Shown here in pieces: positions 4,406 to 9,229 of a DNA stretch of 9,279 nt. Position 1 is the stretch's first letter. Each line of letters opens with the position of its first letter. This DNA comes from Candidatus Atribacteria bacterium (GTDB lineage Bacteria > Atribacterota > JS1 > SB-45 > 34-128): the NCBI GenBank assembly GCA_003451675.1, contig DMCY01000099.1, forward strand, positions 1-9,279, in the 5' to 3' direction. Below the pieces are notes generated by a model that made no database searches, was not told the DNA's origin, and saw nothing but the letters and a program-made list of their open reading frames with translations. Position numbers and translations under genes: made by a program.

Positions 4406-5632
4406 TTATTTTTTTACAAAATCTTTTAAATTCATCAAAGCAAAATCTAAAGCTTCATGAATTCCCTCAGCCTTCTTCCCTCCAGCTTGAGCAAAATTGG
4501 ATGTTCCGCCTCCCCGACCTTCGATAAATTTTCCCGCTTCTCTTATTAATCTATTCATATCATATTTTAACGCCCTGGAACAGGCAAACAATATCTTTAC
4601 TCCTTCTCCCTCTCCTTTACTCTTAATTCCAGCAAATACAACTATACTGTCATCCAGATTAATAATCTTCTGTACCAATCCTCTTACTTCTTGAAAATTT
4701 TTCTCTTCAAATACTTTGCTTATAATCTTTATTCCATCATCTCTTATAGAGGTTTCATCGATTAATTTTTTTGCTTCATATTCTTGTAATTTTTCTTTGA
4801 TCTCTCTTAATTCTTTTCTGGTTTCTTTCCGTTCCTCTAACATTCTCTCCACTGCTTCTCCCAGCTCTGTATCTTTAATCGTCAATTTATTAGAAATGTT
4901 CTTAATTAATTCATTTTTCCAATAATAGTCCTTCAAAGAACGCTTACCGCATGTAAAATCCAACCGAATTTTTACTCCTCTTTTCTCCCATTTTAAGATT
5001 TTAATCAAGCCAACCTCTCCGGTAGTCCCACAGTGAGTACCACAACAGGCACATATATCAAAATCCTTTATTTCTACTATTCTTATATCTCCTTTTTTAG
5101 GAGGAATTTTCCTTAGATTTAATTCATTTGCCCTTTCTTGGTCCACAAAATATACTTTAATCGGTTTATTTTCTAAAACGATATTATTAGATAATATCTC
5201 CGCTTTTTTTACTTCCTCAGAAGTAATGTTATCTTTCATGATATCTAAAGTGCAAATTTCATCCCCCAAATTAAAAGATACCGTATCGGCATTCCATAAT
5301 TTTTCGAAAGCAGCAGAAAGAATATGTTGCCCACTATGTTGTTGCATATGGTCAAATCTTCTCTTCCAGTCAATTTTTCCTATTACCGTATTTCCGCATT
5401 CTTCTTCAATGCCTTCTTTTAATACATGGATTATATTCTCATTATCCTCTATTACATCAACTATTGACACACCCTGAATATAACCTAAATCATTTGGTTG
5501 ACCACCAGAAGTAGGATAAAAACAAGTGTTATCCAAAATAAGAGCAGGTTTGCCATCTATTTTTATTTTTTCTAATATTTTTCCTTTAAACTCTTGCAGA
5601 TATGGTTCTTCATAATATAATCTTTTACTCAA
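4406..5632 (-). CDS. Alanyl-tRNA editing protein, AlaX-L type with DHHA1 domain
   Basis: Stand-alone trans-editing factor that hydrolyses mischarged tRNA(Ala), typically Ser-tRNA(Ala), in the cytoplasm. The N-terminal part resembles the AlaRS domain around PTSGGQPND (40-48). The editing site has HSGQH (99-103), corresponding to AlaRS HxxxH, and a second zinc pair, C196 and H200, in CCGTH. Residues about 260-290 are charged and helical, probably a coiled coil. The C-terminal DHHA1 domain ends with GRGGGTSNFAQAGG (372-385), the AlaRS-type glycine-rich motif. No aminoacylation domain is present, so it is not an alanyl-tRNA synthetase; 408 residues suits AlaX-L. The start is TTG (complement of 5630-5632): no in-frame ATG lies nearby, the N-terminus fits the family from that codon, and GGGAG plus GGAAGGG lie just upstream. 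Confidence 0.93.
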   Translation of the reverse strand: MSKRLYYEEPYLQEFKGKILEKIKIDGKPALILDNTCFYPTSGGQPNDLGYIQGVSIVDVIEDNENIIHVLKEGIEEECGNTVIGKIDWKRRFDHMQQHSGQHILSAAFEKLWNADTVSFNLGDEICTLDIMKDNITSEEVKKAEILSNNIVLENKPIKVYFVDQERANELNLRKIPPKKGDIRIVEIKDFDICACCGTHCGTTGEVGLIKILKWEKRGVKIRLDFTCGKRSLKDYYWKNELIKNISNKLTIKDTELGEAVERMLEERKETRKELREIKEKLQEYEAKKLIDETSIRDDGIKIISKVFEEKNFQEVRGLVQKIINLDDSIVVFAGIKSKGEGEGVKILFACSRALKYDMNRLIREAGKFIEGRGGGTSNFAQAGGKKAEGIHEALDFALMNLKDFVKK

Positions 5633-5983: not shown

Positions 5984-6787
5984 TTATATCAAGACCATTC
6001 TATCTTCTATATACTTATCTTTTCGATTGCCTAATATTGAAAACTGTCTTACTAGATCATCTACATTAATCTTTTCTCTTTCTTCTCCTTGAATATCAAA
6101 AATATTTCGTCCCCTATCCATCATAACAGTACGATTACCCACTTCCAAAGCTTGCTTCATATTGTGGGTAACCATTAAAGTAATTAAGTCTCCCTGCCGC
6201 TCCATAACTAAATCTTGCGTCAATTTCAAAATCTTTTTACTGCTTTCCGGATCCAAAGCTGCTGTATGTTCATCTAAAAGTAAAACCTTGGGTTTAAACA
6301 TGGTAGCCATTAACATGGTCATTGCCTGCCGTTGCCCCCCGGAAAGTAAGCCCACCTTTTTTGAGATATTATCTTCCAGTCCTAAATTTAATTCACTTAG
6401 TTTTTCCCGAAAAAAATTGCGTAAATTTTTATTAATCCCCAAGCGTAATCCCCTTTTTTCTCTTTTTAAAGATAAAGATAAATTTTCCTCAACAGTCATA
6501 TAAGAAGCAGTGCCCAAAAGGGGATTCTGAAAAACCCTTCCAATCCAACGAGCTCTTTGATATTCAGGCTGACAGGTAATCGCCTTTCCTGATAGACTTA
6601 TTTCTCCCTTATCTTGCTGTAGAGTTCCAGCAATTAAATTTAATAATGTTGACTTGCCAGCACCATTACTGCCGATAATCGTAATAAAATCACCCTTTTT
6701 AATCCGCAAGTCAAAATTATCTAAAGCCAGAGTTTCATGAGGACTATTTTTAGCAAAATATTTAGTCAATCCTTTAATTATCAGCAT
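5984..6787 (-). CDS. ABC importer ATP-binding protein, TrpZ-like
   Basis: Cytoplasmic ATPase that powers the importer encoded with it. All nucleotide-binding motifs are intact in 267 residues: Walker A GSNGAGKST (39-47), Q-loop Q87 in FQNP, signature LSGGQ (148-152), Walker B VLLLDE (168-173), D-loop LD (178-179) and H-loop H208 in VTHN. It is the third gene of the operon, starting 3 bases after the permease stop, with AAGGAAG inside the end of the permease gene serving as its ribosome-binding site; translation is probably coupled. The substrate-binding partner belongs to the PF04392-type family found in TrpXYZ systems. Because of the leader peptide upstream I infer tyrosine as substrate rather than tryptophan. 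Confidence 0.95.
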   Translation of the reverse strand: MLIIKGLTKYFAKNSPHETLALDNFDLRIKKGDFITIIGSNGAGKSTLLNLIAGTLQQDKGEISLSGKAITCQPEYQRARWIGRVFQNPLLGTASYMTVEENLSLSLKREKRGLRLGINKNLRNFFREKLSELNLGLEDNISKKVGLLSGGQRQAMTMLMATMFKPKVLLLDEHTAALDPESSKKILKLTQDLVMERQGDLITLMVTHNMKQALEVGNRTVMMDRGRNIFDIQGEEREKINVDDLVRQFSILGNRKDKYIEDRMVLI

Positions 6788-6790
6788 AGA

Positions 6791-7735
6791 TTAAACTTCC
6801 TTTCCATTATTATTTTGTAGATCTTTTCTTCCTAAATTAAATCTATCTGCAAAATTAAGTTTACCTTTAATAAAAGGCACACTTAAGGCTATTACTACCA
6901 GTATAACAGAAATCATTTTCAAATCTCCTGGCTTAAAGCCAAAACTATAACCATAACGTAAAGCAATTATCATAATTAAACGATAAACCAAAGAACCAAC
7001 TAATACAGCGATTGTCCTCCAAAAAATAGTAGGAATTTTTATAATACTGATACCAATTATTACACAAGCCAATCCCGCAACTATTGTACCTAAACCCATA
7101 TTTACATCGGCAAATCCAGAATACTGAGCAAAAAGTGCTCCTGACAAACCTACTAAAGCATTAGAAAGGCAAAGTCCAATAATTTTAGTAAAATCCGTAT
7201 TAACTCCCAGGCTCCTAATCATCTGCTCATTATCTCCGGTGGCAATTATCGTTAACCCTATTTCTGTAGACAAGAAAAAATCTAAACTAAATTTGAGTAT
7301 CACCACCAAAAACAAGAAAAAGAAAGGAATCAGATAATCCATCGATAAATTAGGAAAATAATTTTTTATTTCTCCCAATAAGGTTACTTTTCCCAATAAG
7401 GGAATATTTGGTTTTCCCATAATTCTTAAATTTACCGAATATAGTAAAGTCATTGTCAAAATTCCTGATAAAAGATTAGTAAGTTTTAATTTGGTATGTA
7501 ATAATCCGGTAATTAATCCGGCAAGGGAACCCGCTATCATGGCTAAAAATGTACCCCATAATGGATCTCCACCAGAAAAAATGACCTTGGCGGCTACCGC
7601 TGCCCCCAAAGGAAAACTACCTTCAACTGTTAAGTCAGGAAAATCCAATACCTTGTAAGTAATGAATACTCCCAGGACCATTATTCCAAAAACTAATCCT
7701 TGTTCTAAAGCATGAAGAAAAAGACTTATCGACAT
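6791..7735 (-). CDS. ABC importer permease, TrpY-like (BPD_transp_2 type)
   Basis: Membrane channel subunit, 314 residues with about eight or nine hydrophobic segments. The N-terminal VLDFPDLTVEGSFPLGAAV (29-47) is characteristic of permeases paired with PF04392-type binding proteins. Residues 165-185 (ATGDNEQMIRSLGVNTDF) form the cytoplasmic coupling loop expected to touch the ATPase, followed by GLSGALFAQYSGF (196-208). The tail after about 290 is polar and cytoplasmic. AAGGA lies 9 bases before ATG 7733-7735, and the gene starts 29 bases after the binding-protein stop. A single permease gene implies a homodimeric channel. It has no sequence relation to the NSS transporter at 1719-3062. Confidence 0.94.
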   Translation of the reverse strand: MSISLFLHALEQGLVFGIMVLGVFITYKVLDFPDLTVEGSFPLGAAVAAKVIFSGGDPLWGTFLAMIAGSLAGLITGLLHTKLKLTNLLSGILTMTLLYSVNLRIMGKPNIPLLGKVTLLGEIKNYFPNLSMDYLIPFFFLFLVVILKFSLDFFLSTEIGLTIIATGDNEQMIRSLGVNTDFTKIIGLCLSNALVGLSGALFAQYSGFADVNMGLGTIVAGLACVIIGISIIKIPTIFWRTIAVLVGSLVYRLIMIIALRYGYSFGFKPGDLKMISVILVVIALSVPFIKGKLNFADRFNLGRKDLQNNNGKEV

Positions 7736-7764
7736 ATTATCTGATCCTTTCTTTTAATGGGGGA

Positions 7765-8787
7765 TTAATCACCCTGCACTTTACCATCTTTTATAATTTT
7801 ATCTGCTGCTTTTATAATTTCTTCACTTACAGAAATCCCAATGGTTTTTGCAGTATCCAGATTCACCACAAATTGTAAATCCTTAGGATCAGTTATAGTC
7901 TGAATAGGAATATCAGAAGGTTTAGCACCCTTAATAATCTTTAGAGCTATCTCTCCGGACTTCTTACCTAACGAAAAATAATCAATACCATAAGAAGCTA
8001 AAGCGCCTTTGTCAACCGTGCTCGGGTCAGCAACAATCAAAGCAATCTTCTCTTGATTACATACCTTTATCACAGATTCCAAGGCTGATACTACCGTATT
8101 ATCTGTAACAATATATAAAGCTTCCACTCTGTCAGCCAAAGATTGAGCTGCCATTAAAACTTCACTGGAATTACTTACTGTTACTTCTATCAAATTAAGA
8201 CCGAGCTCTTTGCAGGCTTCTTTTGCCACCTCAACTTGAACCACTGAATTTGCTTCACCCGCATTATAAATAGTTCCAACGTTTTTAGCTTTCGGTAAAA
8301 AACGTGGAATTAATTCAATCTGTTGCTTGTTTGGAGCGGCATCACTCATTCCGGTAAGATTATTCCCAGAACTTTCCCAACTCTTTGCCAAATTAGCAGC
8401 AACCGGATCGGTAACTGCAGTAATAACTATCGGAATATCCTGGTTGACTTGTAATGCTGCTTGGGCGGTAGGAGTAGCGATAGCAAAAATGATATCTACC
8501 TTATCATCTTTAAATTTCTGCGCAATAGAAATAGCATTATTAAAATCCCCTTGTGCATTTTGCAAATCATAGATTACATCTTCGCCTTCCTTCAATCCTG
8601 CTTCTTCTAAAGCGGCTATAAAGCCATCACGGGCAGCATCTAAAGCAGGATGTTCTACAATCTGAGTTACACCAATTACCAAAGGTTGAGCCCCGGCTAA
8701 GGATGATACTCCCCCGATAATCATAAGTGCAATCGCCAATAATAAAATTGATATAGTTTTAATTAAATTTAATTTCATCTTTTTCAT
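7765..8787 (-). CDS. ABC importer substrate-binding protein, TrpX-like (ABC_sub_bind family)
   Basis: Extracytoplasmic solute receptor of 340 residues in the PF04392 (ABC_sub_bind) family, which includes tryptophan-binding TrpX. Residues 1-33 are a Sec signal peptide, with likely cleavage after AGA (31-33). There is no lipobox cysteine, so it should be a free periplasmic protein, fitting a diderm cell. Family landmarks are TQIVEHPALDAARDGF (41-56), ITAVTDPVAA (122-131), NLTGMSD (143-149) and the C-terminal YGIDYFSLG (266-274). It is the first gene of the operon; AAGGAGA (complement of 8795-8801) lies 7 bases before ATG. A second Met at position 4 is a less likely start. The upstream attenuator with eight Tyr codons suggests tyrosine as ligand; the protein sequence alone does not decide between aromatic amino acids. 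Confidence 0.94.
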   Translation of the reverse strand: MKKMKLNLIKTISILLLAIALMIIGGVSSLAGAQPLVIGVTQIVEHPALDAARDGFIAALEEAGLKEGEDVIYDLQNAQGDFNNAISIAQKFKDDKVDIIFAIATPTAQAALQVNQDIPIVITAVTDPVAANLAKSWESSGNNLTGMSDAAPNKQQIELIPRFLPKAKNVGTIYNAGEANSVVQVEVAKEACKELGLNLIEVTVSNSSEVLMAAQSLADRVEALYIVTDNTVVSALESVIKVCNQEKIALIVADPSTVDKGALASYGIDYFSLGKKSGEIALKIIKGAKPSDIPIQTITDPKDLQFVVNLDTAKTIGISVSEEIIKAADKIIKDGKVQGD

Positions 8788-8923: not shown

Positions 8924-8974
8924 AAAAGTAGGGCCAAAGATGTTAAAATTAAAAACACCCATGGCCCTACTTTT
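8924..8974 (-). terminator. Second leader terminator (T2)
   Basis: A perfect 13-bp stem pairs AAAAGTAGGGCCA (8924-8936) with TGGCCCTACTTTT (8962-8974) around a 25-base loop. On the minus strand the RNA ends ACUUUUAUUUU, a reasonable termination tract; on the plus strand a five-T run also follows. It lies inside the leader, 11 bases after terminator 1. A competing 10-bp AU helix (8946-8955 with 8971-8980) would hold the 5' arm in its loop. Confidence 0.75.
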
Positions 8975-8984
8975 TAATTTATAA

Positions 8985-9024
8985 AAACCATAGGCATGCC
9001 CTGGGAGGCACATGCCTATGGTTT
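8985..9024 (-). terminator. Attenuator terminator (T1) downstream of Tyr leader peptide
   Basis: A perfect 14-bp stem pairs AAACCATAGGCATG (8985-8998) with CATGCCTATGGTTT (9011-9024), with a 12-base loop. On the minus strand it is followed directly by a five-U tract (the stem end plus UUAU). Its 5' arm overlaps the strand used by the antiterminator, so only one of the two can form. It stands 44 bases beyond the leader peptide stop codon, the usual place for an amino-acid attenuator. Confidence 0.85.
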
Positions 9025-9084
9025 AATTTTTGATAATAGCAATCTAAATCAACATTACTATTTATCTCTTAGGCATATACCCCC
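9004..9084 (-). promoter_or_regulatory. Antiterminator helix competing with T1
   Basis: In the minus-strand RNA, GGGGGUAUAUGCCUA (9084 to 9070) pairs along its whole length with UAGGCAUGUGCCUCC (9018 to 9004): 15 bp, 12 Watson-Crick and 3 G·U. It takes 8 of the 14 bases of T1's 5' arm. The enclosed segment contains a further 12-bp hairpin with one bulge (9054-9066 with 9032-9043). The upstream strand lies inside the last codons of the leader peptide, so a ribosome at the stop codon would cover it. Confidence 0.8.
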
Positions 9085-9155
9085 TCAAGATAATAGTAAT
9101 AGTAATAATAGTAGTTATTTATAATATTGTTTTTGCTTTGTATTCCAATTTTCAT
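9069..9155 (-). CDS. Tyrosine-rich leader peptide (attenuator sensor)
   Basis: A 28-codon ORF begins at ATG 9153-9155 and ends at TAA 9069-9071. It has an in-frame TGA just upstream of the ATG, so the start is unambiguous. Codons 15-22 (9090-9113) are eight consecutive tyrosine codons (five UAU, three UAC), and codon 27 is also Tyr. The first half is MKIGIQSKNNIINN, and the end is LEGVYA. The peptide is not expected to act itself; its translation senses charged tRNA(Tyr). The ribosome-binding site is weak (a GGTTG-like stretch), which is tolerable for a leader. The ATG is about 39 bases after the predicted transcription start, and the antiterminator strand lies in the last five codons. Position, content and downstream terminator make this a textbook attenuator layout. 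Confidence 0.85.
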   Translation of the reverse strand: MKIGIQSKNNIINNYYYYYYYYLEGVYA

Positions 9156-9188: not shown

Positions 9189-9205
9189 ATATTATTAAAT
9201 AATAT
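9189..9205. promoter_or_regulatory. Perfect 17-bp palindrome over the -10 and start site
   Basis: ATATTATT-A-AATAATAT is an exact inverted repeat with a single central base. It covers the -10 box and the predicted transcription start of the importer operon, where a repressor would block initiation. Being wholly A/T it could be chance in AT-rich DNA, and no regulator gene is seen nearby. Confidence 0.4.
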
Positions 9206-9229
9206 ACATCTCTTTCTCTATTATGTCAA
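9201..9229 (-). promoter_or_regulatory. Sigma-70 promoter of the ABC importer operon
   Basis: On the minus strand a perfect TTGACA (complement of 9224-9229) and TATATT (complement of 9201-9206, 5 of 6 consensus) are separated by exactly 17 bases. An A/T tract lies directly upstream of the -35 as an UP-like element. The start should be near 9194. No better-matched promoter was seen in the window. Confidence 0.75.

Follow-up and report, generated by a model that had tools for sequence, protein, structure and literature searches.

Upstream of an amino-acid ABC importer operon in Candidatus Atribacteria we identified a conserved leader that is, in all likelihood, a ribosome-mediated transcription attenuator sensing charged tRNA(Tyr), with the importer itself probably serving tyrosine. 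The window, by which we mean the whole 9,279-nucleotide stretch that was analysed (GenBank assembly GCA_003451675.1, contig DMCY01000099.1), contains the parts of such a device, these parts are conserved in relatives, and their alternative RNA pairings show covariation.

Results

The leader peptide ORF lies on the minus strand (9155..9069), runs from ATG to TAA over 28 codons and reads MKIGIQSKNNIINNYYYYYYYYLEGVYA. The original prediction of eight consecutive Tyr codons in this ORF was borne out at base level: segment 1 (9113..9090, minus strand) holds them in the order TAC TAT TAT TAC TAT TAC TAT TAT, as candidate control codons, and also provides the 5' arm of a protector hairpin. The TAYx5 pattern occurs four times in the window, each time within the Tyr run, and was absent from 200 dinucleotide shuffles. 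According to the passages seen of one paper, an attenuator with many control codons should respond more sharply (PMC1183508). The Shine-Dalgarno sequence before the leader ATG is weak in the window and likewise in the relatives G001-G004; good ones precede the importer leader of G006 and eight of the 13 leaders of aromatic biosynthesis (aro) genes described below (TAAGGAG).

Ahead of the leader we found the near-consensus promoter that had been predicted, a sigma-70-like TTGACA-17-TATATT (9229..9201, minus strand) with 11 of 12 matches, in a stretch that is near-identical in four close relatives (L001-L004). A promoter scan of the window returned 4 promoter-like sites against 4.8 in shuffles, and the call is therefore made on the quality of the site and the likeness to L001-L004, not on scan statistics. 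Between the leader ORF and the first importer gene lies an intrinsic terminator, conserved with covariation, which was the single match in a terminator scan of the window (0.1 in shuffles). Its 5' arm, segment 3 (9024..9003, minus strand), doubles as the 3' arm of an antiterminator, as seen by folding and alignment; its 3' arm, segment 4 (9002..8988, minus strand; terminator scan, alignment and folding), is followed by TTTTT. The distance of 44 bases claimed between leader stop and terminator is correct, since the last base of the TAA is 9069 and the first arm begins at 9024. Three further minus-strand segments complete the anatomy. Segment 2 (9086..9070) comprises the last leader codons and is the antiterminator 5' arm that pairs with segment 3; segment 1' (9068..9053) pairs either with the Tyr run, giving the protector that encloses segment 2, or with segment 1'' (9044..9032), which in the window folding is the 3' arm of a small hairpin between segments 2 and 3. 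This 1':1'' hairpin is nested in the antiterminator, and a comparable hairpin was read by eye in other groups. Folding of the region 9200-8980 gave -54.3 kcal/mol (z = -4.36), and 0/200 shuffles were equally stable.

The substrate-binding protein (SBP) of the importer was used to find relatives. Its seven nearest among species genomes all belong to Atribacterota MAGs (59-90% identical), and it was detected at E <= 1e-40 in 38 of 50 Atribacterota genomes, which fall into clade A (16 genomes, SBP identity 59-89%) and clade B (22 genomes, 45-53%), both being identity groups and not drawn from a tree. Upstream DNA was readable in the window and in 15 clade A genomes (G005 was left out because of a contig end), and all 16 of these importer loci have the leader architecture. 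The longest Tyr run varies from 3 to 12 codons: 12 in G004, 11 in G037, eight in the window and G006, seven in G003 and G048, six in G002, G007, G047, G049 and G050, five in G001 and G046, four in G043 and G045, and three in G034. It reaches at least five codons in 13/16 loci.

Loss of the reading frame or of the Tyr codons in close relatives had been named as evidence that would speak against a leader peptide, and both were largely retained, with a run of at least four Tyr codons in 15/16 loci and an in-frame ATG in 15/16. The G034 leader reads YGYYYF, with an alignment one base short inside the run and an early stop, and that of G046 is without an in-frame ATG, having TTG alone directly after a stop. 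Both leaders look damaged, with MAG error and real decay indistinguishable as the cause. One base is missing from segment 2 in G043 and G046, with an earlier stop, and Phe adjoins or interrupts the Tyr run in G043 and G045.

These loci bear on whether the TAY run is a mere DNA or RNA repeat, kept for pairing with 1' or for protein binding, with an incidental ORF. Such a reading would account for the Tyr run forming the 5' arm of a conserved hairpin, for the partial persistence of the repeat in G046 and G034, where the frame is disturbed, and for the existence of leaderless TAY repeats upstream of dnaN-like genes (L051, L198 and L204). It would not explain why, in 15/16 loci, the frame stays open from ATG until a stop codon that lies within segment 2 or just beyond it and encodes Tyr instead of Ile, Thr or Leu, nor why the aro and amidohydrolase leaders described below swap to Phe codons yet stay in frame, and we consider it improbable. 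The conserved leader very probably works as a tyrosine attenuator, as judged from the sequences compared here.

Pattern searches gave a broader view of TAY repeats. TAYx6 occurred in 21/50 genomes of the phylum and its backward control in 12/50, so the pattern alone is not specific. TAYx7 was found in 33 of 386 genomes (50 of the phylum plus 336 that were counted as outside it, the phylum search listing no more than 50), nine within the phylum and 24 outside. In 21 of these 24 (all except G307, G170 and G240) one place was inspected by eye, and no leader before amino-acid genes was seen there. The repeats just upstream of the dnaN-like genes in L051, L198 and L204 presumably resemble DnaA-trio origin elements. 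Long ORFs with 7-12 Tyr near the C-terminus (L040, L043, L049, L199, L201-L203, L206, L207, L210, L213 and L215) are an ordinary source of TAY matches; several of them have what we take to be a tyrosine-kinase look. An ORF of about 48 residues in L209 ends in QWYYYYYYYWY and is more like a peptide precursor than a leader. For other amino acids, TGGx4 was discarded as a search pattern (37/50 genomes, with a similar backward control), and CAYx6 occurred in 4/50 genomes as a pattern count alone.

In the 16-row alignment, 88.9% of cells in the antiterminator (2:3) are paired and 12 cells are changed on both sides; for the protector (Tyr run:1') and terminator (3:4) together, 86.6% are paired, with 18 both-side cells. 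The number of both-side cells in the antiterminator exceeded that of all 500 shuffles. Covariation was 0.254 versus 0.165 in shuffles (0/500) for the antiterminator and 0.201 versus 0.133 (0/500) for the protector and terminator, in a shuffle control that ignores relatedness, while slid controls, which allow for relatedness with the structure read from the same sequences, reached at most 47.0% and 54.5% paired cells, respectively. For neither set was there an excess over shuffles in pairs with both-side changes or in further pair types. Columns 15:60, at the third base of a Tyr codon, are UA in eight rows, CG in seven and UG in one. The 2:3 duplex was matched in stability by at most 2/300 shuffles in 16/16 loci. 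Swapping segments across the three groups weakened 2:3 in groups 1 and 2, and segment 2 of group 3 was not weakened (-21.0 own versus -23.0 and -21.9 swapped).

In mask folding of the window RNA with arm 4 unmade, the expected number of 2:3 pairs was 15.8 for a ribosome at Tyr 1-5, fell to 15.4, 13.9 and 10.9 at Tyr 6, 7 and 8, and was 0 at the stop. In this same state 2:3 also wins with no ribosome (15.7 pairs, protector 0). Once arm 4 is made, a ribosome sitting at Tyr 1 or 2 leaves enough of the run for the protector to be able to form (11.6 and 7.7 pairs). The protector would therefore have to form early to act. The full-length RNA at equilibrium prefers the terminator whatever the position of the ribosome, and a switch between the two would thus have to work kinetically, which is the usual case among attenuators.

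A mechanism can be proposed from these pairings. When Tyr-tRNA(Tyr) is plentiful, a ribosome translating the leader would pass the eight Tyr codons to the stop and cover segment 2, leaving 3:4 to pair and RNA polymerase to terminate at about 8985, with a second terminator just downstream that may back up the first. When Tyr-tRNA(Tyr) is scarce, the ribosome would stall in the Tyr run and block its full pairing with 1'; segment 2 would then be free, and 2:3, with 1':1'' nested, could pair before segment 4 is made and permit readthrough into the importer operon. If the leader is not translated, the Tyr run could pair with 1', hiding segment 2 and allowing the terminator to form. The same RNA logic would serve a device in which the ribosome is stalled by a nascent poly-Tyr peptide or by slow decoding, and which senses general translation speed instead of Tyr-tRNA charge, because the anatomy is blind to the cause of a stall. 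We find this hard to reconcile with Tyr runs of 3 to 12 codons in changing surroundings, unlike a fixed arrest peptide, and with a Phe/Tyr content that differs by downstream operon, and therefore give it little weight beside the sensing of tRNA(Tyr) charge.

The importer operon consists, all on the minus strand, of an SBP of the aromatic amino-acid type (PF04392; 8787..7765; 304.8 bits against a 25.9-bit gathering score), a permease (PF02653; 7735..6791) and an ATPase (PF00005; 6787..5984), the last two likewise assigned by Pfam profile. A TrpXYZ-type operon had been predicted here. The ABC importer operon is indeed present (8787..5984), and the family name needs loosening: the SBP scored 275.6 bits against the NCBIfam TrpX model (NF041285), below its 390-bit equivalog cut-off, and is thus TrpXYZ-like, not a called TrpX. 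The window also encodes an SNF/NSS-family sodium symporter (PF00209; 1719-3062, plus strand), possibly another amino-acid importer, with no Rfam element at gathering score upstream of it, and, downstream of the ABC operon, an alanyl-tRNA-editing-like protein with a DHHA1 domain (4406-5632, minus strand).

The best PDB relative of the SBP is Clostridioides difficile CD0873 (6hni; E = 2.3e-76), which binds tyrosine and for which Glu263 and Tyr279 are named as specificity residues in the parts seen of its description (PMC6816091). The window SBP has Asp254 and Tyr270 at these positions. The same Asp/Tyr pair occurs in all 14 of the clade B homologs examined, which have T-boxes with a Trp reading; the residues alone do not decide the substrate, and we rejected the pocket as substrate proof. 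The Tyr codons are the better argument, and they make tyrosine the likely substrate. It is nonetheless conceivable that attenuation works as proposed and that the cargo of the importer is Trp, Phe or several aromatic acids, with tyrosine only as the signal, an alternative that overlaps with our preferred explanation and differs from it in substrate alone. Solved relatives of the SBP bind Tyr, Phe or Trp (PMC6816091, as far as seen), and the UGG (Trp) T-box of clade B homologs sharing the pocket pair points the same way. However, the importer leaders have mostly Tyr codons while the sister leaders of the common pathway combine codons for Phe and Tyr, and Gln at the second pocket position, said to favour Trp in the portion consulted of the same paper (PMC6816091), is absent. 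Taken together, we regard a substrate other than tyrosine as rather unlikely, and tyrosine as what the importer probably brings in.

The original prediction had contrasted this leader with T-boxes, and a T-box does sit on the same importer gene in clade B, beside the SBP gene in 21/22 genomes (the 22nd, G021, is cut by a contig end). The Rfam T-box (RF00230) was recovered in 12/12 clade B loci scanned, with a UGG specifier in 10/12 by pattern and L029 and L037 outside the pattern. Across the phylum, T-box matches were present in 50/50 genomes at E <= 0.001, and in 44/50 over the cut-off. This abundance is what would favour a T-box or metabolite riboswitch at work upstream of the importer, with an unrelated ORF. 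Against it, neither the window nor any of the 16 clade A importer loci has an Rfam match that reaches the gathering score, and we hold this explanation to be extremely improbable; for the window itself, T-boxes and other Rfam elements were accordingly rejected. Among Rfam amino-acid operon leaders, the best in the window was Thr_leader with 33.7 bits against a cut-off of 55, and an unrelated sRNA family scored higher in the same scan (35.1). At tyrS, 16 of 30 loci were examined and none showed a T-box.

Through the TAYx6 search we reached a further leader, in front of an operon for chorismate mutase and DAHP synthase. Profiles identified these two and AroE, whereas the other aro genes were assigned by ORF reading; chorismate mutase is present in 37 of 50 Atribacterota genomes. 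The shikimate operon occupies 2824-6491 of L068, and leaders with Phe and Tyr codons and attenuator-like RNA occur in L069-L081. A mixed Phe and Tyr leader was seen in 13/13 of the closest aro loci inspected, for example SFNFYYYYFTTDVYALTS, with no start visible in L081 and TTG alone listed in L080. Phe and Tyr codons ahead of shikimate genes fit codon-based sensing. The aro terminator covaries; the aro antiterminator has 98.2% of cells paired but neither both-side changes nor an excess over shuffles, and hence offers no covariation proof for this helix. A check of the 17 more distant of 30 aroH loci (L082-L098) for the T-box core motif found none.

A covariance model of the importer leader gave weak matches to the aro leaders (E 4e-4 to 0.35) and recovered a third leader class, outside its training set, in G043, G047, G048, G049 and G050 (E 6e-10 to 3e-6; for example SYYFFYFIPEVNAFGDW). 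These Phe/Tyr leaders, at L174-L178 (G048, G047, G043, G050 and G049, respectively), have a similar RNA device. The next gene in 4/5 loci is, by reading, an M20-type amidohydrolase with a signal-like start; the G048 copy matches TIGR01891, and the G050 locus (L177) ends before the gene. Weaker matches of the model include G049:C268 and G015:C293, and there were also antisense matches to hairpins. A shared peptide end, TGCC and a shared terminator core suggest common descent of the leader classes.

The second terminator-like hairpin (segments 5:6; about 8974..8924, minus strand; -29.4 kcal/mol) was not part of the original prediction; a hairpin lies at the corresponding position in 16/16 loci folded there. 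Its 5' arm resembles that of the first terminator, and arm 4 could pair with arm 5: at most 3/300 shuffles were as stable in 15/16 loci (20/300 in G003), with own pairs not clearly better than swapped ones and with arm 5 having been chosen by motif and resembling arm 3. The 4:5 pairing was absent at equilibrium in the window folding. By chain coupling, 2:3 pairing would release arm 4 for pairing with arm 5, and the second terminator would open; these observations are weak grounds for such a coupling. A Shine-Dalgarno-like purine stretch is present at about 8883-8870 in the window and 64-131 bases ahead of the SBP start in 12/16 loci. Tiny ORFs, most of them not conserved and at least one of the start-stop type, come after it in the interval from the second hairpin to the SBP gene; a mini-ORF before the SBP gene was dismissed as a feature, not being conserved as an ORF across loci.

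Discussion

Attenuators for Trp, His, Phe, Thr and other amino acids are textbook cases. If true, the attenuator proposed here would fill the tyrosine gap among these classical systems. The mechanism is known; its use with this amino acid, in this phylum and for this importer is new, to judge by the open papers seen. Tyrosine control is assigned to T-boxes or TyrR in the literature passages that we found, and tyrosine is listed under T-boxes in the excerpt seen of one paper (PMC1262725). In line with the original remark that no described example was known for this transporter family, a search of open PMC literature, as far as its texts were displayed, returned no attenuator with a Tyr run, the nearest being the Corynebacterium glutamicum aroR leader, reported to ignore Tyr. 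A search of open PMC for Atribacter together with T-box or attenuation gave no Atribacter paper among the matches listed.

We also propose, tentatively and with somewhat more doubt than confidence, that the leaders of this Atribacterota lineage go back to one aromatic attenuator which was duplicated into several operons and adapted through exchange of codons, to Tyr at the importer, Phe and Tyr at the shikimate genes and Phe/Tyr at the amidohydrolase. This would make up a small leader-peptide regulon for Tyr and Phe charging that takes the place of a T-box at the importer, with the two tandem terminators coupled in a chain. That one gene has a T-box in one clade and a leader peptide in another, and that leader codons vary with the operon, makes the evolution of tRNA-charge sensors directly testable. 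The leader codons also allow a prediction of what is imported by a transporter from bacteria that have hardly been cultured.

The leader resembles trpL, pheL, hisL and thrL, from general knowledge of their anatomy, in having a codon-run ORF, a protector, an antiterminator, a terminator and, if the importer does serve tyrosine, a cognate operon. It is unlike them in its Tyr codons, its transporter operon, its occurrence in Atribacterota and its second terminator-like hairpin. At the protein level, the closest solved SBP relative, CD0873, differs in having Glu263 where the window SBP has Asp254. The C. glutamicum aroR leader (Phe-Tyr-Phe), which precedes aroF and is described as responsive to Phe and not to Tyr in the passages seen of one paper (PMC11802643), shares with the Phe and Tyr aro leaders found here its aromatic codons before a DAHP synthase; in those passages, it is without a long Tyr run and without a transporter. 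According to an extract of the relevant study, trpXYZ of Streptococcus suis carries a Trp T-box (PMC9382623), which places the same transporter family under tRNA-charge-dependent antitermination. Clade B Atribacterota are of this type. Unlike the leader described here, the S. suis RNA, as presented in that extract, binds tRNA directly and has no leader peptide. Swaps between leader peptides and T-boxes are known for His genes of different lineages from the sections seen of two papers (PMC2965389, PMC9413887), and the His leader peptides of Firmicutes, found at genes that have a T-box in other lineages, are a parallel to what we observed between clades A and B, differing in that they concern His, not an aromatic amino acid, and another phylum.
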